Translations under genes and position numbers: made by a program
IMG/VR virus record: IMGVR_UViG_3300050821_005524
Coordinates: 1-64,000 of that record
From: a virus
Direction: 5' to 3' (one strand)
Length of the DNA stretch: 64,000 nucleotides
In this document: positions 5,563-62,667 of the stretch, one piece after another
How the letters are laid out: each line of letters starts with the position of its first letter
Numbering within the stretch: the first letter of the stretch is position 1
Notes under the pieces: model-generated
Database searches by the model: none
What the model was told of the DNA's origin: nothing
Seen by the model: the letters and a program-made list of their open reading frames with translations, nothing else

Positions 5563-5631
5563 CGAACACCGGGGCAAGGGGGCTTGTGCCGCACCTTAAC
5601 CCGATGGTAGGTTATATAAGGTTAACGCCGT

Positions 5632-19696: not shown

Positions 19697-19748
19697 ACCG
19701 GGGGCGGCCCACCAGCAAGGAAGTCGCTCCTAACAAGGAACGACTTCT

Positions 19749-45570: not shown

Positions 45571-45840
45571 TTATCCCGTGCCATCCCGTCTAACAAGTTT
45601 ATAACCCGCGGCATAAATGGCTGCAGCCACGCCAAAGGCGGTCTCCTTGGCGGAACTGAAAACCGGTACCCTTATAGCGCCCTCTTGGATAAGACACTCG
45701 ACCGCCTTAAGATGTACACTTTCCGGCGGGTCAAATTTCAGCACCCCAAGGACCTCCAGTGCCGCAACAAAGGAATCTTCATTAAAGAAAGTCATGGGGA
45801 ACTTGTCACGGATTAGCTTTACCGCCTCTTTCCGGGTCAT
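45571..45840 (-). CDS. Hypothetical early protein
   Basis: 89 residues from ATG 45840. Helical, with KEAVKLIRDKFPMTFFNEDS and VLKFDPPESVHLKAVECLIQ. No family recognised. Adjoins the primase-helicase gene with no gap and lies 9 bases after the gene at 45850, so it is part of the replication operon. Confidence 0.6.
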   Translation of the reverse strand: MTRKEAVKLIRDKFPMTFFNEDSFVAALEVLGVLKFDPPESVHLKAVECLIQEGAIRVPVFSSAKETAFGVAAAIYAAGYKLVRRDGTG

Positions 45841-45849
45841 TGCGCACTC

Positions 45850-46845: not shown

Positions 46846-46875
46846 GGGGGTTCTCCTAGTTGGTTACAACGGTAA

Positions 46876-47271
46876 CTATTTCCCGGTAGGGCGCCGCACC
46901 CCAACCGTCTGCAGCGAAGTCAAGTTAACCCCCGGCGGCAGGGTATTGTGCCTCTCCACGTAGTCCCGCACCGCAGTGGTGTTGGCTTTCCGGTCGAGTA
47001 GCTCAAACTCGCCACTCGCCATCATATATTGCATGAAAGCCTCGGGGTCCGCAAGGGAGGCCGTGTACCGTGTCGAAAGAAAACACGTACCGGCCCTGGA
47101 TTTCATATTCGTTACATTGAGGTCGTCCATGGACGACCTTATAATCCCTGCCAGACGTTCCTGAAGTTCCAGTAAAGGCTTCCTCTCAGCGTTCCACCGC
47201 TCATCCACTGCCTTGAGTAAGTCCCTGATCTGTATGTATTGTTCAACCCGCTTGTCAATGTCCTCTGCCAT
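46876..47271 (-). CDS. Conserved phage helical protein (Gam-like layout)
   Basis: 131 residues; ATG 47271 has GGAG at ideal spacing, and ATG 47274 adds one residue. An N-terminal coiled coil (YIQIRDLLKAVDERWNAERK and KPLLELQERLAGIIRSSM) precedes a beta/helix part with PEAFMQYMMASGEFELLDRK and a closing PPGVNLTSLQTVGVRRP. I have seen this pattern repeatedly beside primases in phages. Possible host-nuclease inhibitor or recombination helper; unproven. Confidence 0.68.
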   Translation of the reverse strand: MAEDIDKRVEQYIQIRDLLKAVDERWNAERKPLLELQERLAGIIRSSMDDLNVTNMKSRAGTCFLSTRYTASLADPEAFMQYMMASGEFELLDRKANTTAVRDYVERHNTLPPGVNLTSLQTVGVRRPTGK

Positions 47272-47298
47272 CATCCTTCTCCGCTCTAGTCACCGCCA

Positions 47299-48861
47299 TC
47301 ACACGTTCTCCGTTGCGTTCTCGACCAAATCCAGAAACAAGTTCTGCATCTTCTGCTTGTTACGCAAGATCTTGTATGCCCCCTTCTCGACAGGTGTCGC
47401 CTGTAGATGCAGTATCTGCTGCTTGTGCTTCTGCCCGATCCGGGTTATTCGCGCGTTCAGCTGGTCGTAGGTTTCGAGCGAGAAGATCGGCAGGTACCAG
47501 ATCACCGTATCCGCGGCCGTCAACGTCAGCCCGTGCTTTACACAGCCAGGGTCCACCAGGAGGGCCTTGTACTTGTCGGTAGACTGGAACAGGTGGAACA
47601 CGTTATCCCGGTCCTTGGTGTCACCGTGCACCATACAATGGTCGATGTCTACACCCTTCATGCCGAATATCTTTCCTATCCCCTCGATCATGTGCCGGTA
47701 CGGCACCGCGATGATCACTTTCCTATTCGCCGACTGCACCAGTTCCGCCAGTACCATGATCCGCGGCGTGGGATCGAGCCGCACATACTCCGGGTTCTTG
47801 GTGTAAACCCACCCACCTGCAATCTGGAGTAGTTTATTCAACGCGGCACCAGCGTTAACGGCGTTTATGGTCTTGTCCTTCACCATGGCAACCATGACGG
47901 TCGAAACCTTCTTGTAGGTTTTACCCTGTTCGTCGCTTAAAGGCACATCAATAGTCCGTGATATGACCGGCGGCAGTTCCACCACGTCATCAAGGGAGTA
48001 CCGGCAGGAGGGCTGCATCCAGCTAAACGCCTTGGCCACGGCGTCGGGCTTGGGGCGCCACACGAAATTGCTCACCCGCGTCATCAGGGCGTCACGGGCG
48101 TGGTGCCTGTACTTGGGAACCCGATTAGGGGTAATAACCATGCACTGCGACCACACATCCGTTGGCTCGTTCGGCATGGGGGAACCGGTCAGGCCCCACA
48201 CAATGTTAAAACGTGCGGCAAACTTGCGAATCTTCCTGGATCGGCCGGAATCGTTCCGATACACCGCCAGTTCGTCAAGAACCAGCGTGTTAATGTCGGC
48301 GCGGGAGTGCAGTTCGCTCTCTATGACCTTGAGCCCGTCGTGGTTGATTATGTAGATATCAGCGTCCCTAGATAGCCGCTCGAGCCGCTGGCGTTTAGTG
48401 AAATGCTTGCCAGCAAGCACCTCGACCTTACGCCCCGGCAGAGTGCTGAATATCTCGCGCGCCCAAACAAAGCTAGTGGTCGACAGGGGGCAAACAACCA
48501 GCATCTTCTTGGCTAGGCCCTGCTTGTTAAGGTAGTCCCAACTCCACAGCGCGGTCTTGGTCTTACCCGTTCCCATATGATTGAGGTTGTAGAACCGCGC
48601 GTTCTCCGTCATCAATCGACAGGTGGCGCGCTGCACCTTGTACGGCATCTTATCTGGCGCAGGCTTGCACCAGTCGTAGTATAGGTCCATGGGGTTGGGC
48701 ACGTCGCACCCCATATGCCGCAGCAGGATCGTCTCGCGCAGCCCGTGGGGCACGAGGCGCCGGCCATCCGGTAACCGGGGAACACCGGGAAACATGGTAT
48801 CCACGCCTAGACTGCCCGGTACCACCAGTGTCTGCGTTTTGCGGGAAACGATTACGGGCAT
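47299..48861 (-). CDS. SNF2-like superfamily 2 helicase
   Basis: 520 residues from ATG 48861. Motif I is FYNLNHMGTGKTKTALWSWD (about 90-109), motif Ia MLVVCPLSTTSFVWAREIF, motif II VLDELAVYRN (DELA, about 195), motif III WGLTGSPMPNEP and motifs V/VI LNARITRIGQKHKQQ. The RIGQ signature is typical of SNF2/RapA-type translocases in phages. Moves on double-stranded DNA, probably during replication or repair. The N-terminal 60 residues are an extra beta-rich part. Overlaps the nuclease gene by 10 bases. Confidence 0.85.
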   Translation of the reverse strand: MPVIVSRKTQTLVVPGSLGVDTMFPGVPRLPDGRRLVPHGLRETILLRHMGCDVPNPMDLYYDWCKPAPDKMPYKVQRATCRLMTENARFYNLNHMGTGKTKTALWSWDYLNKQGLAKKMLVVCPLSTTSFVWAREIFSTLPGRKVEVLAGKHFTKRQRLERLSRDADIYIINHDGLKVIESELHSRADINTLVLDELAVYRNDSGRSRKIRKFAARFNIVWGLTGSPMPNEPTDVWSQCMVITPNRVPKYRHHARDALMTRVSNFVWRPKPDAVAKAFSWMQPSCRYSLDDVVELPPVISRTIDVPLSDEQGKTYKKVSTVMVAMVKDKTINAVNAGAALNKLLQIAGGWVYTKNPEYVRLDPTPRIMVLAELVQSANRKVIIAVPYRHMIEGIGKIFGMKGVDIDHCMVHGDTKDRDNVFHLFQSTDKYKALLVDPGCVKHGLTLTAADTVIWYLPIFSLETYDQLNARITRIGQKHKQQILHLQATPVEKGAYKILRNKQKMQNLFLDLVENATENV

Positions 48862-49427
48862 TTCACATAGTCCAGGACGCGCTGTATACCCGCTGCGTTA
48901 TCCCCAAACCTAGCGAGAGATCGATTGCAATTGCGGCAGAGGAGGCCACGTATACGCATGGTCTCGTGGTCGTGGTCCACGCACAGCACCCCCCATGCCT
49001 CTTTATCGGGGGTTTGCGGGCAAAACACGCAATGCCCTTCCTGTGCCTTTAGCATGCGCTCATAGTCCTCTGGCGTTATGCCGTGCCGGCTTTTTAGTCT
49101 GGCACGGCGAGCATCTTCGGGCGAGATAGGGTACTTGCGCTCAGTGTGGCTGTTCAAATAAGCGTTCAGCGCCGACATATCCTCGCTATCTATAACGAGA
49201 ACAGTCCCCCCAGCTTCCCGTATCTGCTTGGCGGTTTCTTCCTGCCTCGGAGTAAGCTTCTTGCCCGGGGCCTTAGTTTCGATGCCGAGAAATTTTCCTT
49301 TGACCGCCACAAGAAAGTCCAGGGTCGGCATGCCGAAACCATGCTGCACCGGCATAAACTTGTAGATACCATCCCAATGCGAAAATACGCGGTTAACCCG
49401 GGCTTTAATCCTGCCTTCGGGTGTCAT
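48852..49427 (-). CDS. VRR-NUC nuclease fused to endonuclease VII-type HNH domain (copy 3)
   Basis: 191 residues from ATG 49427. Residues 1-95 are a VRR-NUC (PD-(D/E)XK) nuclease: MPTLDFLVAVKGKFLGIETK gives the D...ExK catalytic set, then KQIREAGGTVLVIDS. Residues 105-191 are an endonuclease VII HNH domain: SRHGITPEDYERMLKAQEGH, CVFCPQ, CVDHDHETMRIRGLLCRNCN. Stand-alone VRR-NUC genes end where the HNH begins here. The arrangement suggests a mobile HNH captured in frame; both halves keep their key residues. Beside the SNF2-like helicase. Confidence 0.85.
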   Translation of the reverse strand: MTPEGRIKARVNRVFSHWDGIYKFMPVQHGFGMPTLDFLVAVKGKFLGIETKAPGKKLTPRQEETAKQIREAGGTVLVIDSEDMSALNAYLNSHTERKYPISPEDARRARLKSRHGITPEDYERMLKAQEGHCVFCPQTPDKEAWGVLCVDHDHETMRIRGLLCRNCNRSLARFGDNAAGIQRVLDYVKCP

Positions 49428-49596
49428 GCCACAACCTCTTCAACGTGCGCCACATGCGCTGGTGCCACGGGGGCGATAAGTAGCGCAGAAGGGCCATCAG
49501 CGCGTCCGTCTGCGTCTTATATGGCCCGTGGCTGATCTCATCCTCATCGGTCCAATACCAAGCGGAATGAGCACGGAACGGGTTAGGGTAGCCCAT
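49405..49596 (-). CDS. Small WYWTD-type phage protein
   Basis: 63 residues from ATG 49596, with GGAG nine bases upstream. A longer TTG start exists but overlaps the peptide gene behind it. AWYWTDEDEISHGPYKTQTD is a pattern I know from small phage proteins whose role is unknown. A basic C-terminus follows (MWRTLKRLWHDTRRQD). Overlaps the nuclease start by 23 bases. Confidence 0.65.
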   Translation of the reverse strand: MGYPNPFRAHSAWYWTDEDEISHGPYKTQTDALMALLRYLSPPWHQRMWRTLKRLWHDTRRQD

Positions 49597-49688
49597 CACC
49601 TTAAACTCCACACAGTCGCCCAAACAATCGCGGCACCGAGCACGCCGCCAGCCGTTGACCAAACGAGAACGGATAAAATGTCATGCAT
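49596..49688 (-). CDS. 30-residue single-span membrane peptide
   Basis: ATG 49688 has AAGGAGA at ideal spacing. The peptide is MHDILSVLVWSTAGGVLGAA plus IVWATVWSLR, one membrane helix and almost nothing else. Its TGA overlaps the next ATG (TGATG), and its start overlaps the gene before it by 8 bases. The strong ribosome site and coupling support expression. Function unknown. Confidence 0.65.
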   Translation of the reverse strand: MHDILSVLVWSTAGGVLGAAIVWATVWSLR

Positions 49689-49983
49689 GTTCTGTCTCCT
49701 TCGCATTCCTCGTGTAGTTCTTCCGTTCGGGATCATAGCAGCCCGTCCAGATAACCTTCTCCACGTCGCGCCGCTTGATGGCGATGTACTCGAACCCTTC
49801 AACGACACGCCGCTGTATTAAATCCACCCTGCCGTCTTCCATCGCAACCCATGCCGCTCGGGCGGTAAACTCCGTAGCGGGCTTCCACTCCCTGTCACAC
49901 GCAAGGTTGCCAACGTGGTATATGATCCTCTCGCCAAGGAGAGCACGTTTCACTTGGTGGTCAAACGGGGTCAATGCGTGCAT
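49681..49983 (-). CDS. Hypothetical early protein
   Basis: 100 residues from ATG 49983, which overlaps the stop of the peptide gene behind it (TAATG). An N-terminal LTPFDHQVKRALLGERIIYH and a VVEGFEYIAIKRRDVEKVIW segment suggest a mixed alpha/beta fold. No family recognised. Lies between two tiny membrane-peptide genes. Confidence 0.62.
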   Translation of the reverse strand: MHALTPFDHQVKRALLGERIIYHVGNLACDREWKPATEFTARAAWVAMEDGRVDLIQRRVVEGFEYIAIKRRDVEKVIWTGCYDPERKNYTRNAKETEHA

Positions 49984-50078
49984 TACCAAAACTTTCCAAT
50001 GAAGTGGACAACCACATAGCCGATGCCGCCTACCAACGCGAGCTGCACAACAACAGCAGCAAAGAAATACTTCGTCAT
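49983..50078 (-). CDS. 31-residue single-span membrane peptide
   Basis: ATG 50078 has GGAG seven bases upstream. The peptide MTKYFFAAVVVQLALVGGIG plus YVVVHFIGKFW is one membrane helix with a lysine at each end. TAA overlaps the next ATG. Second of at least four membrane micropeptides in the early region. Confidence 0.65.
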   Translation of the reverse strand: MTKYFFAAVVVQLALVGGIGYVVVHFIGKFW

Positions 50079-50137
50079 CTGAAGTCTCCGTTGTTTTTGA
50101 GGACTCTAAAATGTGGTTTTAGCCGGCAACAATCAAA

Positions 50138-50350
50138 TCACAAACCCGTGAACCCGGGCTCTGGTCCTAACTTTATATGGGGGGATGGAGTCTCTAGTAC
50201 AGCCGTGATATGGTTATAAGCCCGCGACTGGTTACCGGGTTCAAAGTCATTCCTTAGGGCGTTACGCGCCACAATAAGCGCCGCCCGCAAACGCGCAATC
50301 TCGTCTTTGAGGTCACGTATTTCTTGCGTCTCCTCATGCCACACACTCAT
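50138..50350 (-). CDS. Small coiled-coil protein
   Basis: 70 residues from ATG 50350, three bases after the nuclease gene. The first 40 form a charged coiled coil (ETQEIRDLKDEIARLRAALI). The C-terminus is Pro-rich. Longer starts upstream would lie wholly inside the nuclease gene. Function unknown. Confidence 0.6.
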   Translation of the reverse strand: MSVWHEETQEIRDLKDEIARLRAALIVARNALRNDFEPGNQSRAYNHITAVLETPSPHIKLGPEPGFTGL

Positions 50351-50352
50351 CG

Positions 50353-51012
50353 CTAACCTCGCTTCCCGTGGTAAGTGCACGAAATTACAGGACAATAGCG
50401 CATGCACAGCTTCCCAGGCTTGGGCGGGTATGTCAGCGTCTCCGCGGCATGCTCCATGTCCTTGACCTGGGGAAAGATCGATATCCACTCGCGGTGAATT
50501 GTGTCGCGGTCGAAAACCTCCACGGTGACACAGTCTTCCTTCAGCCATACAAATTCGGTCTTTATACGTGACAGTTTCGGATAGTGTACGAACAGACACT
50601 GTGCCATGAGCACCAGCTGGCGGCTGTCGTGCTGCAGTTTGCCAGTCTTCCAGTCTCGAGCCCATGCCACCGGCCCATTGATCTTGGCCACGTCGCACAC
50701 GCCGCGGAACCACACATTAGGCTTGAAATAGTCAGTGGGCTGAAAGTCCCTAGTCATCGCCAACTTCTGCTCCACCAGCAGATCACCCGGGCCGCCGAAC
50801 ATTTCGTCAACCCAATGCTGGTAGTCCTTCATCTCATTCGGCAGGGGGGCCTTATATTTAAGTGCTCTTTTGAACGCGTCGTGGACCTGGTTCCCCCATA
50901 TCAGCTGCTCGCTGCTCTCGGTGAAGTTTTTTGCTAGGTCGACCTCGTAAAATCTTTTTGGACAAGTATTGAAATTTTTATATTTGGAGTATGACCAACT
51001 GAACGCTTTCAT
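50353..51012 (-). CDS. Cas4/RecB-like PD-(D/E)XK nuclease with Fe-S cysteines
   Basis: 219 residues from ATG 51012. N-terminal KNFNTCPKRFYEVDL holds the first cysteine. The nuclease core is WFRGVCDVAKINGPVAWARD, then WKTGK, giving the D...DxK set, with the QxxxY-type helix RQLVLMAQCLF. The C-terminal GKLCMRYCPVISC supplies three cysteines. One plus three cysteines flanking the core is the 4Fe-4S layout of Cas4/AddB nucleases. Probably processes DNA ends in replication or recombination. No CRISPR array is near. Confidence 0.85.
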   Translation of the reverse strand: MKAFSWSYSKYKNFNTCPKRFYEVDLAKNFTESSEQLIWGNQVHDAFKRALKYKAPLPNEMKDYQHWVDEMFGGPGDLLVEQKLAMTRDFQPTDYFKPNVWFRGVCDVAKINGPVAWARDWKTGKLQHDSRQLVLMAQCLFVHYPKLSRIKTEFVWLKEDCVTVEVFDRDTIHREWISIFPQVKDMEHAAETLTYPPKPGKLCMRYCPVISCTYHGKRG

Positions 51013-51353
51013 GATACGTACTCCAACGCCCGCAAAATGCCCTCCCTGTTGTCCCCTAATACTCCCAAGGCGGCATTATGAGAACGGCACAAGAGCCCAC
51101 GAAACCTTCCTGTCCCATGGCAATGATCCACGTGTAGACCGTCCGCCCTCAAACAAAGTGCACAGTGGCCGCCCTGTTTTACAAGCATATTATCCCATTC
51201 TTCGGGTGTTATATTGTAATAGCGCCTCAACCATAGCTTCCGCACAAGAGCCTTGCCGCGTGGCGAATTGCGATACTTCTTCGCAGACGCCCTGCCCGCG
51301 GGGGATAAATTGTACTTGTTCGCTATTTCCCGCCTACGATCTCTTGTAACCAC
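51009..51353 (-). CDS. HNH endonuclease, endonuclease VII type (copy 4)
   Basis: 114 residues from GTG 51353 behind AAAGGAGG. A basic N-terminus precedes YYNITPEEWDNMLVKQGGHC, CALCLRADGLHVDHCHGTG and FRGLLCRSHN, ending DNREGILRALEYV. The last part resembles the end of copy 3 (DNAAGIQRVLDYV), so those two are closest. The zinc CxxC after RG is replaced by CRSH, which keeps a His ligand. Inserted between the Fe-S nuclease and two membrane micropeptides. Confidence 0.85.
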   Translation of the reverse strand: MVTRDRRREIANKYNLSPAGRASAKKYRNSPRGKALVRKLWLRRYYNITPEEWDNMLVKQGGHCALCLRADGLHVDHCHGTGRFRGLLCRSHNAALGVLGDNREGILRALEYVS

Positions 51354-51365
51354 TCACCCTCCTTT

Positions 51366-51458
51366 TCAAAGCGGTTTCCAAATATCCCAAAGGGTTAGCC
51401 CCAACATAACAAGCAGGAGCACCAAACTAATGTAATTCAGCACATCGCTGCGGTTCAT
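51366..51458 (-). CDS. 30-residue membrane micropeptide, tandem copy 2
   Basis: ATG 51458 overlaps the stop of copy 1 (ATGA). MNRSDVLNYISLVLLLVMLG plus LTLWDIWKPL has one membrane helix. It shares the start M-x-RS-x-V and the end W-D/E-x-W-x-PL with copy 1. A clear tandem duplicate pair. Confidence 0.68.
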   Translation of the reverse strand: MNRSDVLNYISLVLLLVMLGLTLWDIWKPL

Positions 51459-51565
51459 AGCGGCCCCCAAACTTCCCACATACCCCAAAACCAGCCAATG
51501 ATCAGCCCCAGCTGAACCAGCATGACCACCGAAACAATAAAATCAAACACCGCGCTGCGATCCAT
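51455..51565 (-). CDS. 36-residue membrane micropeptide, tandem copy 1
   Basis: ATG 51565 has GGGAG seven bases upstream. MDRSAVFDFIVSVVMLVQLG plus LIIGWFWGMWEVWGPL is one membrane helix, Trp-rich at its end. The frame could be extended upstream to a weak start, but the ribosome site and the paralogue both support ATG 51565. Function unknown; could act at the membrane during early infection. Confidence 0.68.
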   Translation of the reverse strand: MDRSAVFDFIVSVVMLVQLGLIIGWFWGMWEVWGPL

Positions 51566-51707
51566 CAGCTTGCTCCCTGCCTTGCTCCCCCTTGTCTTCC
51601 GGTTGCTCCTGCAAACCATCGCAGCAGTGCTCAACCCCAAAGCCCGAACAGTTAGGACAGGGCCACTCTTCCACCCATCCAACCCCGTGGCAGTTTCTGC
51701 ATATCAT
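51543..51707 (-). CDS. Small zinc-finger protein (DnaJ-like CxxC pairs)
   Basis: 54 residues from ATG 51707, which overlaps the previous stop, behind GAGGGG. ICRNCHGVGW, CPNCSGFG and HCCDG give CxxCxGxG-type zinc knuckles like those of DnaJ and many phage small proteins. The tail is Glu/Gln-rich. Role unknown. Confidence 0.68.
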   Translation of the reverse strand: MICRNCHGVGWVEEWPCPNCSGFGVEHCCDGLQEQPEDKGEQGREQADGSQRGV

Positions 51708-52288
51708 CGTGCCCCCCTCGGTAGCGGCAGCCCCAGCTCGTTCTCGAGTTCCTCCTGCAGCAGCGCAAGAGCGCGCCATGCCATCTGTGCTGTATGGCTG
51801 TTCCCCTCGGCATCGGGACGACCCCGCTCCACAAGGTGCCTGATAATACAGTCCGCATGGTCCATAGACTTGCCACGGGCGTGGTGCAGGGGCTCACCAG
51901 GATTATGCTTTTCATTTCCTAGAAAGCTAACCCTGGCCACCGCAGCAAGGGCGTCAGGGAAGTAATCCAGCAATCCACTGCACATAGGAAACTTCTTACG
52001 GCCCTCACTATCCACATCTGTGAGTAAACGTTCAGGGTTTACTGGCGCCCTATCCCCGTCGCCCGGACTGCCAGCGAGCAAATGTGCAACGGTGCCACTC
52101 GCTGGTTCAGGCTCAAACATTAAACGGTGGAACCCAATCTTTTCAGACATCCCACCGCTCTTGGCGCTATCATCTGGAACAGCGCTCTTCTTCGGAACGA
52201 AGGCAGGCCTGCCATCCAAAGGGATATGGGGCTCAGGCTCAAACGTCAGACCAGCAGCGCGAAAAAGGCGTCCAGCGGGGTCATCCAT
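51704..52288 (-). CDS. dATP/dGTP diphosphohydrolase-like protein (DUF5664 type)
   Basis: 194 residues; ATG 52288 overlaps the previous stop with GGAG at good spacing. The C-terminal domain (GRKKFPMCSGLLDYFPDALA, then AVARVSFLGNEKHNPGEPLH, then HADCIIRHLVERG and AWRALALLQEELE) is the all-alpha DUF5664 / dATP-dGTP diphosphohydrolase N-domain. Related proteins (MazZ-type) adjust purine dNTP pools in some phages. The N-terminal half is disordered, with a repeated TFEPEP/MFEPEP motif. Works on nucleotides in the cytoplasm; exact substrate unknown. Confidence 0.75.
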   Translation of the reverse strand: MDDPAGRLFRAAGLTFEPEPHIPLDGRPAFVPKKSAVPDDSAKSGGMSEKIGFHRLMFEPEPASGTVAHLLAGSPGDGDRAPVNPERLLTDVDSEGRKKFPMCSGLLDYFPDALAAVARVSFLGNEKHNPGEPLHHARGKSMDHADCIIRHLVERGRPDAEGNSHTAQMAWRALALLQEELENELGLPLPRGAR

Positions 52289-52736
52289 TCCCAATCTCCA
52301 TGATCGTAAGGCCAAGAGCTATAGCAACAGCACGTTCCGCGGTCGCCCCCAAGCTGCGCTGCCACCCCGGCAGGAAAGCAATCTCATCGGCTTCCTTGCA
52401 TATCCAGGCAATATCTTCCGCCAGGCACTCTCGAATGGTTATCCCGTACTTCTTGGCGAAGGCGTCGGCGTCCCCGGTGGGGAACTCCGCAGAAACATCC
52501 CTGCCCAGCCGCTTTATGTCGGCTTCAGCGGGGCTGAAAACGGTGTACCCGCGGGCGCGCAATTTGTACGCCGCGCTAGCAAACGTTGGGTAATTAAATT
52601 CCGGCACCCCACGCATAGGGCCGGCGAGGTATACTTTTTTGGACTTTACTTGCCCTAAAACGTCGGCGGCTGCGGCGTACCCGCGGGCGTACCCGCGATC
52701 ATATCCACGACACCAGGCTCTTTCAACTTCGTCCAT
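52281..52736 (-). CDS. DUF4406 nucleoside 2-deoxyribosyltransferase-like protein
   Basis: 151 residues from ATG 52736 behind GGGAGG. KVYLAGPMRGVPEFNYPTFA opens the flavodoxin-like domain. RECLAEDIAWICKEADEIAF supplies the D...AD set, and GWQRSLGATAERAVAIALGL supplies the catalytic-type E and the helix. This is the DUF4406 family, related to nucleoside deoxyribosyltransferases. An extra helical N-terminus (CRGYDRGYARGYAAAADVLG) precedes it. Next to the dATP/dGTP hydrolase, so both may act on the nucleotide pool. Confidence 0.78.
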   Translation of the reverse strand: MDEVERAWCRGYDRGYARGYAAAADVLGQVKSKKVYLAGPMRGVPEFNYPTFASAAYKLRARGYTVFSPAEADIKRLGRDVSAEFPTGDADAFAKKYGITIRECLAEDIAWICKEADEIAFLPGWQRSLGATAERAVAIALGLTIMEIGNG

Positions 52737-53071
52737 GTCTTATGCCTCCCTCCATAAAGTTGCCGGGGCGGGAGCCCCGCTTTCCTGGCGATCCTGCGAA
52801 TGGTGCTCATATGTATGTTATATTCACACGCAATGCTAGCACTTTTCACCCCCTCTGCATACAAGTCCGCAACGGATTGCCGCTCATGGTCTTGAAGTTT
52901 GTTACGTGATTTCGTCCTGAACCCTAGCCGCTTCATAACGTCGTAAACAGTGGATTGTGGTCGCCCGGTAACCTGGGCTATCCTGTAAGTACTCCACGTT
53001 GGATGAGCTAGCCGCATGGGGACGACATCCGCTTCAGCCCAAGGTTTACGCAACCCCTTTCGAACCCGCAT
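52655..53071 (-). CDS. Double helix-turn-helix DNA-binding protein
   Basis: 138 residues from ATG 53071, with GAAGGAG at good spacing. Two HTH units are visible: TYRIAQVTGRPQSTVYDVMK and VKSASIACEYNIHMSTIRRI. It is basic throughout. Similar two-HTH layouts occur in resolvases and in homing-nuclease-associated domains, but there is no catalytic domain here. A regulator or replication-site binder. Its 3' end overlaps the next gene by 82 bases. Confidence 0.68.
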   Translation of the reverse strand: MRVRKGLRKPWAEADVVPMRLAHPTWSTYRIAQVTGRPQSTVYDVMKRLGFRTKSRNKLQDHERQSVADLYAEGVKSASIACEYNIHMSTIRRIARKAGLPPRQLYGGRHKTWTKLKEPGVVDMIAGTPAGTPQPPTF

Positions 53072-53381
53072 TCATTTTCTCCTTCATAGCCGCTATACGC
53101 GCATAGGCTTTCCGCTTATCCTCGCGGTCGCGTAGCTCCCGATAAATGGGCTGGCGCTCTACCAATGTAAGTTCGCTGCTCTCAGCCCACGCTTGCAGCT
53201 CCGCATCGATCGCCGCCTTAATCACTGTGCCAGTAGGAGGCCACGGAATGGTAGGCCCGGGGGGACTTGAACCCCCATTCCGACTTTGGATCGGTCCTGA
53301 TTGGATGACAGGCCTAGGGTTGGCAAGTGTGCCATCCTTGTTCCTTTTCAAGTACTCGGGGATCGAGAGGTCATCGTCCAT
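53046..53381 (-). CDS. Hypothetical protein with IPxxLKRNxDxTLAN motif and tRNA-like insert
   Basis: 111 residues from ATG 53381, which lies inside the end of the gene behind it. LSIPEYLKRNKDGTLANPRP closely matches IPSFLKRNPDNTLANKG in the giant virion protein. The following stretch (VIQSGPIQSRNGGSSPPGPT) is encoded by the tRNA-like element at 53249-53315. The helical C-terminus (ELQAWAESSELTLVERQPIY) looks like an independent small domain. Confidence 0.6.
   Translation of the reverse strand: MDDDLSIPEYLKRNKDGTLANPRPVIQSGPIQSRNGGSSPPGPTIPWPPTGTVIKAAIDAELQAWAESSELTLVERQPIYRELRDREDKRKAYARIAAMKEKMNAGSKGVA
53249..53315 (-). other. tRNA-like element (strong 3' half, degenerate 5' half)
   Basis: Read on the minus strand, a 7-bp acceptor stem (AGGCCTG with CGGGCCT, one G-T pair), a perfect 5-bp T-stem with loop TTCAAGT, and an encoded ACCA end are present. 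A partial anticodon stem (CCGA/TCGG) is seen. The D-arm is short and position 33 is not T, so it is unlikely to be a working tRNA. It may be a tRNA remnant or an attachment-site-like copy of a host tRNA 3' end. Confidence 0.5.
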
Positions 53382-53571
53382 GCCGGCGCTCCTTGTAATA
53401 AAACGCTTCCGCGAGCTTGCGGGCAACCCGGTGAGGGGACGATCGCGCGATCGCGTTATGGATCGTGCCGGCCTCGTCGGCGTCGGCTGCGTCGAGGAGC
53501 CACTTTCGAACGTCATGGTGTTCCATGTGGCCCAGCAGCTGCTTGTAAGTCGGTTTATGGTTGTATGGCAT
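53371..53571 (-). CDS. Small hypothetical protein
   Basis: 66 residues from ATG 53571, overlapping the polymerase stop. MPYNHKPTYKQLLGHMEHHD, then RKWLLDAADADEAGTIHNAI and a basic end (YYKERRHGR). Helical and charged. No family recognised. Coupled to the polymerase. Confidence 0.62.
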   Translation of the reverse strand: MPYNHKPTYKQLLGHMEHHDVRKWLLDAADADEAGTIHNAIARSSPHRVARKLAEAFYYKERRHGR

Positions 53572-55526
53572 TACTTCGCATCCCCATAACTCTGCCCGAA
53601 ACTGCACTCCGCGTTCAGCGGAATATCCGGGCCCCAGGTCGGCGGCCGGCGCATTTCCTCGAGCGCCACACGCATGCAGTCTTCTACCTTATCATCTGGT
53701 ACAACCCAAATCAATTCGTCGTGTGCCTGCGAGTTGAACCTGTATCCGCGGGCGCTTATCCTCATGGCAGCTTCCATCGTGTCTATGCGTGCAAGGAATT
53801 GTACTATGTTCTCGAGGAATTTTGCACCGTATATCTTGTGGCTTTCCCCGCCGTAATCGTACCATAGTTCGCGTTTGCAAACCTCCTCATTCCACTCCTC
53901 ACGAGGGTTGGCGTACTGCATGCGCAAACCACCTGGGCCCTCGACAAACCCGCGGCCAATAACACACGGCCCAAACCGCACAGGCAGGGTCTGCCCGATC
54001 CACGCCGTTCGTAGAATAGTATCCAATTCCCGCCAAGTTTGCACGATCATGCTATGGGTACTCCGGTACGTCCGTACCGAAATCTCCGCAAGCTCGGGTG
54101 TCCATACCTTGAGCAACGCCTGCATATCCATACCCATGCCGCGGGCCGACCTTATCACCATGTTATAAAACTTATTGTGTCCACACCCATACCCTAAACC
54201 AAGTTCACCGCTCTTGCCGATAAACCGCTCAATCTTATGCACATTCTTGTTTACCTCAAACCCGAATATCTGTGACGCAAGCCGGCTATACGGATCGCCC
54301 CCGGTGGCAAATGTCTCGAGCAAGTCCTGCTGCCCGCACAGCCACGCATTGATGCGGCACTCGATCTGTGCCTTGTCCGCCACTACCACCTTATAACCTG
54401 CGGGGGCACATAAGGAGGCCCGCAGCTTCGACTTTTGCTTACCCCTGCCCGATGGCAGGTTCTGGAAATTAAGCTTCCAGTCGCCGCCTAGGCGGTGCGT
54501 GTGCGCCGCGGCATATTTAAGGGGGATCGGCATTGTGTGGGGGTGGTGGTGCTTATACTCGTACCCATACCCTCCCCCGTAGAATTCCCATGGAAGCTGT
54601 GCCATAGACAGCATGCGCTCGCCGCGTGTCTGCTCTATGGTCGATCGCAGATCCAGCCTGGCCGCGGCCAGCAGCTGCACAGTTGGGTCGGGGTGCTCCT
54701 GCAAGTTTACCATGAATTCATCGGTCTTGGAGAAAGCCGGTATACTCAGCTCAGGGTTGGTAGGCGAGGTCTTGTATTCGATATCGACCCCCAGCCGCTT
54801 AAGTGTTGCCTCGAATTGAGTTGTGCTGCGGAGTGATCGTTTAAATTTCTCCCGGCCATCATCGGTCAGCGGGCACCCTGCCGCTTCGTCTAGCATCGCC
54901 AGTCGCTCAGTCCATAAATCAGACAAGTGGTCTTCTAAAAGCCTGGTATCACATATAAACGCAGGCTCCACGGCGCACCGCAACACATGGTCCATCACCT
55001 TGTATTCACTCTTAGGGAATTCAGGCATGAGGGCATGATAGATGGCCGCGTTCATCTCATTGTCGTTATTAGCGTACTCCTGATAGGCTCGATAGAACAC
55101 CGCATCGGACACAATATCCGCCCGGTGCTTCCCCTTCGCGTCTGCGATCGTAGTGCCCTTGGTGCCACATTTAAGTAGTTCTCCAACAGCAGCAAGGGAA
55201 TGGCCACGCATGATATGACCCCGCAGGGACACGGCCATTCGCATGGTGCAGAACATTCGAGCGGGGACAAAGCCGTACCGCCAAGCAAGGATGCAGTTGT
55301 CGAACAAGGCATTGAACGCCACCGTTGCGGTTTGCCTGGGGTCGAACTGGGCAAGGTAGGCCGGTATGTCCGGGGCATCCACGTACCGTGCCGGCGCATC
55401 GCCTTCCTTGAACGAGCACCCGATCGCCTCGAACCGCGGGTCCAGGATATAGTTAGGCGGCGCCATCTTGCGCAGCGAAAAGTCGCTATCGTAATAGCTT
55501 TCGAAGTCAAAAAATAGAATTTTCAT
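53571..55526 (-). CDS. Family A DNA polymerase with 3'-5' exonuclease
   Basis: 651 residues from ATG 55526. Exonuclease motifs are LFFDFESYYDSD (DxE, residues 7 and 9), AFNALFDN and YANNDNEMNAAIY. Polymerase motif A is VVADKAQIECRINAWL (about 386), motif B is in RFIGKSGELGLGYGCGHNKF (about 432) and motif C is SQAHDELIWVVPD (about 617). There is no 5'-3' nuclease domain. It replicates the phage genome. Compact PolA enzymes of this length include the DpoZ group of Z-genome phages, but I cannot decide membership by eye. Confidence 0.92.
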   Translation of the reverse strand: MKILFFDFESYYDSDFSLRKMAPPNYILDPRFEAIGCSFKEGDAPARYVDAPDIPAYLAQFDPRQTATVAFNALFDNCILAWRYGFVPARMFCTMRMAVSLRGHIMRGHSLAAVGELLKCGTKGTTIADAKGKHRADIVSDAVFYRAYQEYANNDNEMNAAIYHALMPEFPKSEYKVMDHVLRCAVEPAFICDTRLLEDHLSDLWTERLAMLDEAAGCPLTDDGREKFKRSLRSTTQFEATLKRLGVDIEYKTSPTNPELSIPAFSKTDEFMVNLQEHPDPTVQLLAAARLDLRSTIEQTRGERMLSMAQLPWEFYGGGYGYEYKHHHPHTMPIPLKYAAAHTHRLGGDWKLNFQNLPSGRGKQKSKLRASLCAPAGYKVVVADKAQIECRINAWLCGQQDLLETFATGGDPYSRLASQIFGFEVNKNVHKIERFIGKSGELGLGYGCGHNKFYNMVIRSARGMGMDMQALLKVWTPELAEISVRTYRSTHSMIVQTWRELDTILRTAWIGQTLPVRFGPCVIGRGFVEGPGGLRMQYANPREEWNEEVCKRELWYDYGGESHKIYGAKFLENIVQFLARIDTMEAAMRISARGYRFNSQAHDELIWVVPDDKVEDCMRVALEEMRRPPTWGPDIPLNAECSFGQSYGDAK

Positions 55527-58848: not shown

Positions 58849-59169
58849 CTACTCCACACCCACATATTCTTGAAACGTGACGGTCTTGCGCCCGATAGAA
58901 ACCGTTTGAGCCCTGCAGTCCAGCACAATCAACGGGTGGTCAAGGTCACCATGCTTGGCAGTGCCAATGCCAAAGCCGGTTTCATTCGCTTCTGCGCCCT
59001 TTATCATTTCGCAAAAAACAATCCGGGCGAGGTATTCGGGATCAGCCCAACGCCATTGCTTTGCCAATGCCGTTTTCACAGTGTCAGCTAGTTCACTGCC
59101 GTTCGAATGGGTGTACAAATACACTTTACGCTTCCCGTCTTTAATCGCAACTTGTGCTCGATCGCCCAT
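58849..59169 (-). CDS. Conserved phage protein (MGDRAQVAIK type)
   Basis: 106 residues from ATG 59169 behind AAAGGATGA. MGDRAQVAIKDGKRKVYLYT, HSNGSELADTVKTALAK, YLARIVFCEMIKG and TGFGIGTAKHGDLDHPLIVL match a family I have seen in many phages and plasmids. It resembles small alpha/beta regulators. Function unknown. A promoter and palindrome lie just upstream. Confidence 0.75.
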   Translation of the reverse strand: MGDRAQVAIKDGKRKVYLYTHSNGSELADTVKTALAKQWRWADPEYLARIVFCEMIKGAEANETGFGIGTAKHGDLDHPLIVLDCRAQTVSIGRKTVTFQEYVGVE

Positions 59170-59228
59170 TGTAATCATCCTTTCATGGTTGAACGGCTGT
59201 AAGAGTAGCATACACTCCGGGCGCCGTG

Positions 59229-59305
59229 ACATTACCGGAAAGTTAAATTTAGTGGCAAGGCGTGACGGTTCGACTAGTCGAACCGTCCTACTTTGTCACT
59301 TGCCA
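59229..59305 (-). promoter_or_regulatory. Leftward promoter with nested palindromic operator
   Basis: TTGCCA (59253-59258) and TAATGT (59229-59234), read leftward with an 18-base spacer, form a promoter for the gene at 58849. Immediately upstream lies a perfect 24-bp palindrome (59264-59287; half GACGGTTCGACT). It is enclosed by TGGCAAG/CTTGCCA (59253-59259 and 59299-59305), which includes the -35 box. This is a likely regulator-binding site. Confidence 0.6.
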
Positions 59306-59379
59306 TATCTGTATTGCAGCCATGACCAAATGGCGAGAAGGCGCAGGCGTTGCAGTTTTTTCCATTGTTTGTGTGTCAT
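59296..59379 (-). CDS. 27-residue cationic peptide
   Basis: ATG 59379 overlaps the previous stop (ATGA) and has AAAGG eight bases upstream. MTHKQWKKLQRLRLLAIWSW plus LQYRYGK carries about eight Lys/Arg and a Leu/Trp-rich face. This is typical of amphipathic, membrane-active or nucleic-acid-binding peptides. It ends inside the palindrome flank. No homologue recognised. Confidence 0.5.
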   Translation of the reverse strand: MTHKQWKKLQRLRLLAIWSWLQYRYGK

Positions 59380-59594
59380 CGTAGCACCTTTGCTGCCTTT
59401 AAGCGTGCCCCAGAGCATAAAGACAATTCGCCGGTTTCACGGTCACGGAACCAATAGGTTACATCGGTACCGCCATAATCGTTAAACCGTTCCATGTAGC
59501 CTATGTGATCAACGCCGGCAGCATCCTGATAAGCCCATTTTGGGCCGCTTGCCTTTGCCGCTAGCCACTCAGGTGTTCCAGGTGTACATGCCAT
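59376..59594 (-). CDS. Small hypothetical protein
   Basis: 72 residues from ATG 59594. TPGTPEWLAAKASGPKWAYQ, then GVDHIGYMERFNDYGGTDVT, then WFRDRETGELSLCSG. Probably a small beta-rich fold. Ends KAAKVLR with an ATGA coupling to the cationic peptide. Function unknown. Confidence 0.6.
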   Translation of the reverse strand: MACTPGTPEWLAAKASGPKWAYQDAAGVDHIGYMERFNDYGGTDVTYWFRDRETGELSLCSGARLKAAKVLR

Positions 59595-59627
59595 TGTATT
59601 TCTCCATTTCCGGCATTGATGGCCGTT

Positions 59628-59668
59628 CTAGCCTACCGCAGTGGATAGGCTAGGGCTGCAACCCTACA
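59628..59668 (-). other. Two short intercistronic hairpins
   Basis: CTAGCCTA (59628-59635) pairs with TAGGCTAG (59646-59653). A second hairpin, TAGGG/CCCTA, follows, with its right arm at the stop of the gene at 59664. They may slow transcription or protect the upstream message; no T-run. Confidence 0.5.
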
Positions 59669-59906
59669 GACCGCATCCGGCATTGTGCGCCGCTAGCGCG
59701 GCCGTTTTCCAATCACTTTGGTCGACAGGAAAGGTATGGACGCGGCTGCTATAACCATAACCGCGCGCATTTACAGAAACATATTGCAACGCAGCATTTA
59801 AATCGTCGTCTGTGCCTTTCGCGACCCACAACGCCGCAAGTATTTCGCCGTCATGTCCGGGACGTGTATCATTCCAGGTTATTACGATGGTTTTCTGGTC
59901 TGTCAT
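59664..59906 (-). CDS. First gene of the leftward early operon, hypothetical
   Basis: 80 residues from ATG 59906 behind AAGGAG. MTDQKTIVITWNDTRPGHDG, then EILAALWVAKGTDDDLNAAL. Compact alpha/beta. No family recognised. It is directly behind the strong early promoter at 59945-59974, so it should be among the first phage proteins made. Host takeover or regulation is plausible. Confidence 0.65.
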   Translation of the reverse strand: MTDQKTIVITWNDTRPGHDGEILAALWVAKGTDDDLNAALQYVSVNARGYGYSSRVHTFPVDQSDWKTAALAAHNAGCGL

Positions 59907-59944
59907 GCTCGTTACTCCTTAGGTCGGGTTGTGGTGACGCACGT

Positions 59945-59974
59945 AAGATAGGTCTTATCCGCAAGGCTAGTCAA
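59945..59974 (-). promoter_or_regulatory. Main leftward early promoter
   Basis: Read leftward: TTGACT (59969-59974), an 18-base spacer and TATCTT (59945-59950). It lies 39 bases upstream of the first early gene, which has a perfect AAGGAG ribosome site. It probably drives the long early operon to 42469. Confidence 0.68.
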
Positions 59975-59984
59975 TTCACGGAAG

Positions 59985-60000
59985 CGTGATTTTGATCACA
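59985..60000. promoter_or_regulatory. CRP/FNR-like palindromic site
   Basis: CGTGATTTTGATCACA matches the TGTGA-N6-TCACA pattern with one mismatch in the core arms. Further overlapping GTGA/TCAC half-sites lie on both sides (TCACGGAAGCGTGA; ATCACAAACACGTGAT). The centre is about 55 bases upstream of the predicted leftward start, a common activator distance. Confidence 0.45.
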
Positions 60001-60054
60001 AACACGTGATAACGGCGCTGGAATACGGCATGGGAGAGCCAGCCGCCAGGCTAA

Positions 60055-60082
60055 TTGACACTAATACCGGTCCTATTAGTAT
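60055..60082 (+). promoter_or_regulatory. Rightward promoter with operator in the spacer
   Basis: TTGACA (60055-60060), a 16-base spacer and TAGTAT (60077-60082). A perfect inverted repeat ACTAATA (60060-60066) and TATTAGT (60074-60080), with a 7-base centre, fills the space between the two hexamers. A repressor bound here would block RNA polymerase. It is 80 bases from the leftward early promoter, back to back. Confidence 0.7.
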
Positions 60083-60091
60083 CTATATATA

Positions 60092-60197
60092 TATTTTGAA
60101 TAAGTAATTGTAATAGTGAGTTGTGTAACGTATAGGTTGCATCCCTATATGCTATAGGTTGTATACAACCGCATAATACACTTCATTATTCAAAATA
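60092..60197. repeat. 12-bp inverted repeat enclosing AT-rich region and GGTTGTA palindrome
   Basis: TATTTTGAATAA (60092-60103) and TTATTCAAAATA (60186-60197) pair perfectly across an 82-base loop. Inside are a 14-bp palindrome (GGTTGTA with TACAACC, 60157-60170) and TATGC/GCATA arms around it. The sequence is strikingly AT-rich against a GC-rich genome, as at an origin or DNA unwinding site. Confidence 0.7.
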
Positions 60198-60662
60198 ACC
60201 GCTCTCCTGCCGAAACTACCCTGCATTAGACCATTAACACGTGTAAACCATTGCACGGTCTGCACTTATCCTGTGTACGCTCCGCTCCCAGCTGCCGTGT
60301 AACCGCACCAGATCGTCCTCCATTAGCCCCTACGCTGGTGACACTCTGGTAATCTTTGACCTGAAATAACGCGCTACAGGCCTTCCTAGACGGTTGTAAT
60401 GCCCCATCGTTAGGTTGTAATAAGGTTGTAGTCCGATCTGGTTGCAGCTCGGTCAGGACATTATTTATTGCATTTCGCGTTGGCACGGTGAAACGGCGAC
60501 ACCTGGCGCGCGTGGTACGGTTGCACCGTGCTACGGGGGAAGGGCTACCCCCACCCCCCACTTGGACACCGGGGTGGCCTGCGCGCGAAGAAAGCCCCCT
60601 TTAAAAATGTGTAGCCCGTAAAAAGGTATATTGACAAAACCGGAAAAAATATATAGGTTGCG
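60131..60662 (+). repeat. Iteron-like GGTTGYA repeats in the non-coding control region
   Basis: GGTTGTA or GGTTGCA occurs directly at 60135, 60157, 60392, 60413, 60424, 60440 and 60519, inverted at 60164, and as GGTTGCG at 60656. TATAGGTTG occurs at 60131, 60153 and 60652. I see no gene between 59907 and 60665. Such a cluster suggests binding sites for a replication initiator or regulator. Confidence 0.65.
60631..60657 (+). promoter_or_regulatory. Promoter for the GIY-YIG gene, possibly leaderless
   Basis: TTGACA (60631-60636), a short 15-base spacer and TATAGG (60652-60657). The start of transcription would fall at or next to the ATG at 60666, and no ribosome site is visible before it. The -10 is part of the TATAGGTTG repeat. 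Confidence 0.45.
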
Positions 60663-60665
60663 TTC

Positions 60666-61088
60666 ATGGTATCACATTGGTCTGACCCACACGCGCTGTA
60701 TCGGATTTTTGACAGGAATGGAACCTTGCTCTATGTTGGGTGCTCGTACGCTTTGTGTAGTAGGTTGGGCCACCATGGTGTGATGCAACCGTGGATACAT
60801 GAGGTTGCCACGATTAAGGTGGAATGGTACCACGATGAGATAACTGGACGGCGAGCGGAAGCCGCCGCTATACTTTCAGAGTGTCCCAAGTATAACCGGT
60901 TAAAGATTAAACCCGATGCGGTTGGTATCAGTGGGCAGGCGCCACTGGAACGTCGGCCGCGGGGGGACGGTACCAAATGCCCGCGGTGCGGGAACCCGAA
61001 AGAAGACACGCGTGTGGGCAGAGCGTACTGCAACCCATGCTACCGTGAATATCAGGCGGCACGGCGGCTCAGAAGTAAGGCAACATGA
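60666..61088 (+). CDS. GIY-YIG endonuclease with zinc finger
   Basis: 140 residues from ATG 60666. ALYRIFDRNGTLLYVGCSYA is the GIY-YIG pair (LYRIF...LYVG), RLGHH carries the catalytic Arg and RRAEAAAILSECPKYNRLK the metal-binding Glu. The C-terminal CPRCGNPKEDTRVGRAYCNP, then CYREYQ, is a zinc finger. Size is that of free-standing phage GIY-YIG proteins, either homing nucleases or host-DNA cutters. It lies immediately beside the putative origin. Confidence 0.85.
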   Translation: MVSHWSDPHALYRIFDRNGTLLYVGCSYALCSRLGHHGVMQPWIHEVATIKVEWYHDEITGRRAEAAAILSECPKYNRLKIKPDAVGISGQAPLERRPRGDGTKCPRCGNPKEDTRVGRAYCNPCYREYQAARRLRSKAT

Positions 61089-61303
61089 CCGATTACCGCC
61101 GCATGGTATGGCAGTACTGGGCCAACAGGGTTTCCTGGTGGGTGGTCTGCGTATGTATCGTTGCGGGGGCGGATGAAGTTGTGGATGCTATGCGGCACCA
61201 CTTCCCTTGGTGGGAGGACGCGGTCGGTGTTGCCACGCTAGTAACACTTGTAGTTGCAAGCTTTATACACAAGTACACCAAGATGTACCGGTGGGACCTG
61301 TAA
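61085..61303 (+). CDS. Small membrane protein
   Basis: 72 residues; ATG 61085 overlaps the GIY-YIG stop (ATGA). Two hydrophobic segments are present (VSWWVVCVCIVAGADEVVDA and AVGVATLVTLVVASFIHKYT) with Trp-rich borders. Function unknown. Confidence 0.62.
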   Translation: MTDYRRMVWQYWANRVSWWVVCVCIVAGADEVVDAMRHHFPWWEDAVGVATLVTLVVASFIHKYTKMYRWDL

Positions 61304-61703
61304 ACATTAACAACTTGTAATTAAACCAACGCCCGTAAATCACCCGTTAACTGCGGGAGTTGGCTCACCGGCGGGCCGAGTCCGTACTCTCCAAGCCCTA
61401 GTATGTACACCTCCCAGGGCGTGCCCGCCGGCTCGCGCCCCCTGCTTAATTTAAAAACCCAACAATGTCAATGGGTGCCCCCCGGAGGACCAACCAAGTG
61501 CATCGCACCCTCTTCACCCTGCCGAGCTTAAAGAGATCAGCGAGACGGGGGTTGAACCCGTAGCCAGGGTCGGCAGACCCGTACACCGGGGAGCACCTTT
61601 TCCATAACACGAGCCAGGCTCCTGTCAAGGGGATTAATTCCCGAAAAGCTGGGCTATTAATCCCCCTGTTGCATTTGCCCCAGGAATGGGTTAGTTGGTA
61701 ACC
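61304..61703. other. 400-base non-coding stretch with strong RNA-fold potential
   Basis: I see no convincing gene here. A three-way junction is possible at 61368-61431 (9-bp closing stem CCGGCGGGC/GCCCGCCGG, hairpins at 61378-61389 and 61395-61420). An 11-bp stem with one mismatch (61474-61484 with 61587-61597) encloses four short hairpins. One of them (61545-61561) looks like a tRNA T-arm on the minus strand. A 10-bp hairpin GGGGATTAAT/ATTAATCCCC lies at 61629-61665. Together they suggest structured RNA. Confidence 0.5.
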
Positions 61704-61943
61704 ATGAAACGCAAACACCGTAAAATTACACAGGTGTACGACGGTGAGAGGTATTTACGCGCTCCAGTTGAAGTCCTTATATGCTGCGGCTGTGGGCTAA
61801 CCCACATAACACACGTTCGCCACATGGCTGGTAAAACGTATGAAACGATGTGGGTGGACAACCGCCGTACCGCTAACGCACGCCGCGGGAAGAGGTACAA
61901 GGGCCTGCGCCTTCCAGTTGACAAAGGTAAAACAGCTAGCTAA
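61704..61943 (+). CDS. Small basic zinc-type protein
   Basis: 79 residues from ATG 61704. It is strongly basic (MKRKHRKITQVYDGERYLRA) with one CCGCGLTH cluster and a closing KRYKGLRLPVDKGK. Probably binds nucleic acid. No family recognised. It overlaps nothing upstream and follows the structured non-coding stretch. Confidence 0.6.
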   Translation: MKRKHRKITQVYDGERYLRAPVEVLICCGCGLTHITHVRHMAGKTYETMWVDNRRTANARRGKRYKGLRLPVDKGKTAS

Positions 61944-61953
61944 TTTCCCCGAC

Positions 61954-62169
61954 ATGACAAACGAAGAGCTTGACACCGTTATTGACGCCTTGAACCAGGG
62001 CGCTAAGTGTCTCCTCGAGTGCCTGGAGGAAATCCAGGACTGGCGCGACTGCGCCCGTTACGACCCCTGTATGGAAGGCCCCCGGTTTAAAGGCTGGGAC
62101 CGTTCGGCCCTTGACCGCTGCCGTAAGAAATACGTGGAACCAGTATGCCCACCAAAGACCCCCACATAG
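61954..62169 (+). CDS. Small helical cysteine-containing protein
   Basis: 71 residues from ATG 61954. MTNEELDTVIDALNQGAKCL, then ECLEEIQDWRDCARYDPC and DRCRKKYVEPVCPPK. Several cysteines suggest metal binding or disulfides. Overlaps the next gene. Function unknown. Confidence 0.6.
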   Translation: MTNEELDTVIDALNQGAKCLLECLEEIQDWRDCARYDPCMEGPRFKGWDRSALDRCRKKYVEPVCPPKTPT

Positions 62170-62372
62170 CCCTGATCGACGCCCACGAGAAGTTGCACCG
62201 TATAAAGGTGAAACTGCGGGAAGCGATGGCGCTGCTGAAGAGCAAAGCGTCAAGGGGGCAGCTTAGTCAGGCTGACCTGCTGATGGTTATGGCTATTCAG
62301 CGGGAGGCAACAGACGCGACCCGCCGGGTGCAGGACGAGTTGTACGAGGAGCTGGAGAGCCACGAGCGGTAA
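62145..62372 (+). CDS. Small coiled-coil protein
   Basis: 75 residues from ATG 62145, almost wholly helical (HEKLHRIKVKLREAMALLKS; LMVMAIQREATDATRRVQDE). No family recognised. Marks the end of the early-type genes; virion-type beta proteins follow. Confidence 0.62.
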   Translation: MPTKDPHIALIDAHEKLHRIKVKLREAMALLKSKASRGQLSQADLLMVMAIQREATDATRRVQDELYEELESHER

Positions 62373-62406
62373 CTAAACCGTAACACCCTTCCCCCACACT
62401 CCCCCA

Positions 62407-62667
62407 ATGCCGAACGTAGGACAAAAAACCGTCAGAGTTGCAACGGGTACCAAGCCCCCGCAGTACCGGTCTTGCGTCATCCTGGCGTCCACCACCACGG
62501 CGAACATCTACCCCACCTACACCCAGACCACCCTGGACGACCGCACGTTCGAGACGATCCACGATGCCGGCGGATCCGCCGTTAGTGGTTTAAAAACTGT
62601 TGTCGTGACAGGGTATAACCGTAACCCCGGCTCATATGTGCCGACGTACGAGCTTCTAGGCTTCTAA
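62407..62667 (+). CDS. Small beta-rich protein, probable virion component
   Basis: 86 residues from ATG 62407. MPNVGQKTVRVATGTKPPQY, then TTTANIYPTYTQTTLDDRTF and a closing VPTYELLGF. Thr-rich beta strands resemble small fibre or decoration proteins. Position before two virion-like genes supports this. Confidence 0.55.
   Translation: MPNVGQKTVRVATGTKPPQYRSCVILASTTTANIYPTYTQTTLDDRTFETIHDAGGSAVSGLKTVVVTGYNRNPGSYVPTYELLGF

Follow-up and report, generated by a model that had tools for sequence, protein, structure and literature searches.

The 64,000-base window analysed here, positions 1-64,000 of the IMG/VR virus record IMGVR_UViG_3300050821_005524 (69,316 bases; G000 below), contains a 759-bp gene-free gap (59907-60665) that separates the leftward early and replication genes of a podovirus-like phage from a rightward gene, and that very likely serves as its replication origin, whichever protein binds there. 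Our more specific proposal, which comparisons of sequence lead us to consider probable, is an iteron origin of a type found across a phage family and resembling those used by the Rep proteins of Staphylococcus aureus pathogenicity islands (SaPIs), with the phage's own 1033-residue primase-helicase (42469-45570, minus strand) as the binder. An earlier note on this DNA had marked a candidate origin here; that idea is now supported by a GC-skew minimum lying in the repeat array, by a core kept in the nearest relative (G001), and by the arrays of further relatives together with a SaPI-Rep-like initiator.

The repeat array and its surroundings

The gap, delimited by the open reading frame list and the called genes, holds seven direct and one inverted copies of GGTTGYA (Y, pyrimidine) within 391 bases (60135-60525), just as the earlier note had counted them over about 390 gene-free bases. 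A motif scan places GGTTGCA at 60135-60141 and GGTTGTA at 60157-60163, both on the plus strand; the latter is the left half of a palindrome, also described before, whose right half is the inverted GGTTGTA at 60164-60170 (minus strand). A second set on the plus strand comprises GGTTGTA at 60392-60398, 60413-60419 and 60424-60430 and GGTTGCA at 60440-60446, and an outlying GGTTGCA copy lies at 60519-60525 (plus strand). The start-to-start spacings (22, 7, 228, 21, 11, 16 and 79) resolve the copies into two sets. Dinucleotide shuffles of the gap (2000) contained 0.30 copies on average and 3 at most, against the 8 observed, and when the choice of motif was allowed for, by scoring every 7-mer that contains one Y/R position, the highest count in 500 shuffles was 6, reached in 5 of them. 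Enrichment of the motif over the full 64 kb is slight (37 copies vs 20 expected); the array is the top-scoring short-repeat cluster of the entire 69-kb map by a 7-mer cluster score. Clustered short repeats also serve as packaging (pac) or partition sites, and the array might be a DNA site of that kind, which we regard as very improbable: the terminase gene region (4075-6877) lies about 13-16 kb from the array on the circular map, and no partition proteins were found among the proteins scanned, which did not include every open reading frame.

The first set of iterons lies in an AT-rich tract (60080-60200; 72% A+T, genome 42.5%) that is a candidate unwinding element. It is framed by a perfect 12-bp inverted repeat, TATTTTGAATAA, located by a repeat scan at 60092-60103 (plus strand) and 60186-60197 (minus strand); a perfect 12-bp inverted repeat within 110 bp arose in 10 of 2000 shuffles. 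Arms of 36 bp are predicted to fold (DNA z -3.2; minus-strand RNA z -4.4), and the corresponding G001 DNA folds differently (z -2.6). Of the AT-rich cruciform put forward earlier, the perfect repeat and the AT-rich tract stand, but its role as the key element was rejected, since G001 does not keep the 12-bp arms, which for that reason are probably part of the DNA that unwinds rather than an essential part of the origin.

What G001 (67,431 bases; 64-65% identity to the G000 initiator and 66-67% to the polymerase) does keep is a core at 60103-60184, which aligns at 75% identity in noncoding DNA, the adjacent small genes not matching. Within it, GGTTGYA copies spaced by 17 and 21/22 bp are retained (of these, the first is degenerate in G000), as is a perfect palindrome, GGTTGTATACAACC. 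The exact core pattern was found among viral contigs in G001 and in one 157-kb contig, and among 26 family records in G001 only. The earlier note had held that repeats not conserved in relatives would speak against an origin; the repeat sequence is kept in one relative, G001, and the architecture in many. The core pattern also occurs in 27 stretches of bacterial genomes (L103-L129), mostly Methylophilaceae, where it looks like the operator of an unrelated regulator. A dense GGTCTAG-type repeat array was seen near the end of the G001 contig (L007, about 19600-20000).

It is conceivable, though we think it unlikely, that the repeats function as operators, with GGTTGTATACAACC and its half-sites bound by a transcription factor of phage or host to control divergent early promoters, while replication starts elsewhere. 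The array does lie in a divergent promoter gap, and the perfect palindrome, which is doubled in many Methylophilaceae genomes and once precedes an Xre-like regulator gene, in an Acidimicrobiia contig (L121), resembles a transcription-factor operator; the early block also encodes a helix-turn-helix protein (52655-53071) with a relative in G001. Most copies, however, are direct, widely spaced half-sites rather than palindromes, several relatives carry arrays of 8-12 copies over 300-500 bp, the GC-skew minimum falls inside the array, and the helix-turn-helix protein was found in none of the 17 array-bearing stretches described below (the G001 stretch used does not cover that gene). The early promoters that the earlier note had named as neighbours were not borne out: there is a single promoter-like TTGACA-16-TAGTAT sequence (60055-60082, plus strand; a consensus match only) with an internal ACTAATA/TATTAGT dyad, and promoter-like matches in 59000-62500 number 6 vs 2.9 in shuffles. 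The other proposed neighbour, a nuclease gene, is present at 60666-61088 (plus strand), matches phage endonuclease families (phrog_16880, E 2e-15) and has no match in G001. This gene adjoining the proposed origin encodes a small endonuclease, and the origin-directed nuclease Odn of phage ICP1 is GIY-YIG-like.

GC skew

The record ends of G000 share a 97-base overlap, giving a circular map of 69,219 bases, and our proposal takes the phage map to be circular or circularly permuted. On this map the minimum of the detrended cumulative GC skew falls within the second set of iterons, at 60408, where it stays when the gene-strand effect is removed. The maximum (28469) lies 46% of the map away, within the rightward late genes, and the range exceeds that of all 2000 block permutations. 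The minimum of G001 is 1.3 kb from its array, G000 and G001 being homologous and hence not independent cases. We extended the comparison to the 14 array genomes that could be read whole, including G017 and the cultured Pseudomonas phages KPP25 and Rollin; in 11 of them, no more than 10.3% of the map separates the array from the skew minimum.

Arrays in related phages

A capsid search returned at least 521 confirmed relatives among at least 599 stretches. From capsid and initiator searches we assembled 30 stretches lying upstream of initiator genes, 29 from phage records (among them G000) and one from the cultured Rhizobium phage RHph_TM27A (here TM27A); 15 of the 30 were extended to about 31-34 kb. 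To calibrate the 7-mer cluster score we used 20 Markov-resampled genomes, whose maximum of 7.06 served as the threshold; the finder also scores coding and other repeats (G001 at 67101, G012 at 26101, G041 at 8001), and the criterion of a noncoding, AT-rich, divergent setting was applied after the scan, not blind. An iteron array was counted in 17 of the 30 stretches, 14-24 kb upstream of the initiator gene (G000, G001, G018, G015, G027, G010, G009, G012, G011, G038, G041, G014, G008, G030, G035, G040 and G006). All 17 are richer in A+T than their own stretch and lie outside called genes, except for 3 of 12 copies in G038; among the tabulated clusters, the gene on the left runs leftward in 21/21 and that on the right runs rightward in 16/21. 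G018 owes its score to a different 7-mer within the same scored interval, where the TCATATTAT-type repeat has 6 copies. G017 carries something resembling an array that scores below the threshold and was not counted, G028 was left uncounted with a score of 7.69, and the G033 repeat was dropped as an array since 7 of its 9 copies are inside called genes.

The repeat itself differs from lineage to lineage. GGTTGTA is shared by G000 and G001 and AATGGTGGGGA by G015 and G027; G010 has TTGGCGAATG, G012 GTAGTTACG, G011 TAATTCGCA, G009 GACATTTA, G035 CTGACACTA and G040 GGACACAAG. On our reading, and with G014/G008 and G035/G040 counted as possibly alike, the 17 arrays contain at least 13 different repeats. 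Among cultured phages, Rollin has an array of 10 copies of AAAAGGTAG at about position 236, and KPP25 one of 8 copies of TGTTACGAA at about 26570 (NC_024123, 26218-26895; unannotated), whose full length recurs at 96.6-100% identity in the sequenced relatives of KPP25 (three other phages). As in G000, the array of KPP25 and the other Kochitakasuvirus phages lies in a gap and has an AT-rich centre.

Three further repeat features were noticed in these stretches. The G010 array is present twice (L155/L156, oriented stretch 14700-15230 and 16440-16880), about 1.6-1.9 kb apart and with long near-identical stretches, as if the origin had been duplicated. CAGCAT/TGCTGC-type repeat runs, perhaps in reading frame, occur in the early region of G012 (L162, oriented stretch 15680-15860) and of G001 (L007). 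In G011 (L163/L164, oriented stretch 15835-15925 and 15440-15480) a long inverted repeat, estimated by eye at about 35-40 bp, stands beside the iterons, as does an AAT/ATT hairpin.

The candidate initiator

The primase-helicase matches Pfam DUF927 (E 5.1e-11, above the cut-off), and a profile of its 16-member family matches SaPIbov1 Rep (8tch, E 1.1e-21) and Cch of the staphylococcal cassette chromosome SCCmec (5dgk, E 4.1e-19). Its C-terminal domain (residues 840-997; 42580-43053, minus strand) is a predicted winged helix and our candidate for the iteron-binding domain. An AlphaFold2 model of these 158 residues, built with 28 relatives, has a mean predicted local distance difference test score (pLDDT) of 87.6; a poor model of the full-length protein (pLDDT 36) was set aside. 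By Foldseek alone, the C-terminal domain had no PDB match at E<=0.001. When 999 chains from Foldseek's top 1000 were compared by VIA-align 2, the model ranked 8tch first (residues 452-561; Z 8.1, 102 residues, root-mean-square deviation 3.2) and 5dgk second (residues 439-556; Z 7.9, 92 residues, root-mean-square deviation 3.0), followed by a plasmid oriT-binding protein (Z 6.3). The top rank of the two C-terminal domains is more than chance, because both proteins were already known from the helicase part. The N-terminal region is weakly to moderately assigned as a primase: it matches phrog_2478 DNA polymerase/primase (E 2.7e-10) and PrimPol (6zp9, E 0.018), with RepB_primase in G001 (E 0.0082) and LigD_Prim-Pol in Rollin (E 6.6e-4) both below the Pfam cut-off. 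A TM27A protein annotated as 'putative integrase' (MN988461, 42248-45331) belongs to the same primase-helicase family.

Of 136 initiator pairs, the two most similar (core 0.71/0.67, C-terminal 0.62/0.59) are those whose genomes share a repeat, and pairs at 0.52 or below have different repeats, save for the possible partial likenesses G014/G008 and G035/G040; this comparison of iteron with C-terminal domain rests on two same-repeat pairs, in which shared ancestry is not separable.

The origin may be real and yet be bound by another phage protein that recruits the primase-helicase, for example the 331-residue (45850-46845) or the 132-residue protein (46876-47274); this, too, we judge unlikely. 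We compared 21 leftward G000 early proteins with the 17 array-bearing stretches, leaving out the initiator, which had been used to choose them; the G001 stretch covers only part of the early block. Six proteins occur in 16 or 17 of the 17: the polymerase, SNF2 helicase, exonuclease, a 191-residue endonuclease-like protein and the 331- and 132-residue proteins, the last two in 16 each. In KPP25 the array goes with a different primase/helicase (DUF5906), yet a relative of the 331-residue protein is kept. The searches made recognised no DNA-binding domain in either protein, however, whereas the modelled C-terminal fold of the primase-helicase matches that of SaPI Rep. With other early proteins also widespread and the helix-turn-helix protein found in 0 of 17, the initiator is thus the best but not the sole candidate for the binder.

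Genome and relatives

Protein matches to a portal/head-tail adaptor, an internal virion protein and a terminase (homologous to that of TM27A) mark G000 as podovirus-like. Its replication genes run leftward at 42469-55526 and, by protein-family matches, encode a family A DNA polymerase (53571-55526, minus strand), an SNF2-type helicase (47299-48861, minus strand), an exonuclease and the primase-helicase. The nearest cultured relatives found are Rhizobium phages TM27A and kin (polymerase 39%, initiator 28%), followed by KPP25 and Rollin. Searches found no phage record near-identical to G000, no tRNA gene in the 64-kb window and no RNA family at the gathering score from position 50001 to the record end, and single-protein scans with the nuclease and with the primase as queries returned no matches.

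Discussion

We infer that the iterons are bound and an origin fires at the G000 array, and that forks would leave it in both directions. In our proposal for initiation, the primase-helicase would bind the GGTTGYA iterons through its C-terminal winged-helix domain and assemble there as ring helicases, which could then melt the adjoining AT-rich DNA (60080-60200). Two forks, started by the primase-like N-terminal region together with the family A polymerase of the phage, would diverge from the origin and meet near 28 kb.

Several observations weigh against this proposal. No array was counted in 13 of the 30 stretches, ten of which had none at all (G005, G022, G029, G031, G032, G034, G036, G037, G039 and TM27A), the others being G017, G028 and G033; the divergent gap of TM27A lacks a comparable array although this cultured phage has the same initiator, and although its skew minimum is near that gap. 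The skew minimum is far from the array in G009 (0.45 of the map), G014 (0.27) and KPP25 (0.26), and the KPP25 array is instead near the skew maximum (0.04 of the map). After strand correction, which covered 11 genomes, 8 agree while G018, G009 and G038 do not, and it should be noted that transcription can produce skew extremes at a divergent gap. The overlap that closes the G000 map sits in a collagen-like repeat, so that map closure alone is weak; one collagen-like gene of G001 matches both G000 ends. Finally, SaPI iterons lie directly downstream of rep, whereas the G000 array is about 14.5 kb upstream of the initiator gene (14-24 kb in the family), at the divergent gap of a lytic phage. Because its iterons are not just downstream of the initiator gene, we do not class G000 as a SaPI replicon but regard its proposed origin as one that would work in the way of a SaPI origin.

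The likeness to that system is nonetheless considerable. SaPI Rep is described as recognising iteron origins, which like the proposed origin of G000 are made of short repeats, with its C-terminal domain; the DUF927-containing Cch is a relative of SaPIbov1 Rep; and Cch2, of another helicase family, has a like role and binds direct repeats in vitro through its C-terminal domain, according to the available part of PMC7581432. The G000 protein shares with SaPIbov1 Rep and Cch a homologous DUF927 helicase and, in the model, a C-terminal fold at the same position in the protein, and it differs from them in being a single protein of about 1000 residues whose helicase is fused to a primase-like N-terminal region. 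Primase-DUF927 proteins of mobile elements have been predicted to be replication proteins whose C-terminal winged helices might recognise origins, and of these the PrimQH and All3500 families share a predicted primase and DUF927 helicase with G000, PrimQH also a C-terminal winged helix (PMC5862659, in the portion available). Those families were predicted from proteins, whereas here matching DNA arrays that differ between relatives have been located; the likeness is at the level of arrangement. Satellite P4 has an iteron origin, and its alpha helicase is of another class than DUF927. As in G000, initiating helicase and primase are joined in one protein in P4 alpha, as the accessible text of PMC7145576 has it; in the same source the initiator of PLE (the phage-inducible chromosomal island-like element that opposes ICP1) is a RepA_N protein, ICP1 and PLE being, as is proposed for G000, a case of iteron origins in phage biology. 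KPP25 differs from G000 in its DUF5906 primase/helicase and in the skew maximum near its array.

No paper describing iteron origins in these phages was found by title or opening of the abstract, in a search that left most subscription journals outside its range, and the words 'origin' and 'iteron' are absent from the available part of the Kochitakasuvirus genome paper (PMC13340246). What is new here is the pairing of a fused initiator with mapped arrays in a lytic phage family, together with the turnover of the repeat sequence. Because the position of the array is constant while its sequence changes, initiator and origin probably form a pair that stays matched while changing fast across the family. 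A more tentative and rather doubtful extension is that the origin is under diversifying selection, initiator and iterons changing together and faster than other replication genes, so that each lineage would hold a private origin code. Replicon conflict could be the driver, whether with satellites that borrow the initiator of the phage, with relatives in co-infection or with nucleases directed at origins, such as Odn of ICP1, from which iteron changes let PLE escape (PMC8263062, as far as its available part describes).

If the proposal is true, it places origin, initiator and specificity domain for a large phage family that includes cultured Pseudomonas phages. To our knowledge, most lytic phages have no mapped origin, a few model systems apart. 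It would also extend the self-loading initiators of the SaPI and SCCmec type to lytic phages in fused form, and would provide about 13-15 natural iteron/initiator pairs that might allow the recognition code of the winged helix to be read.
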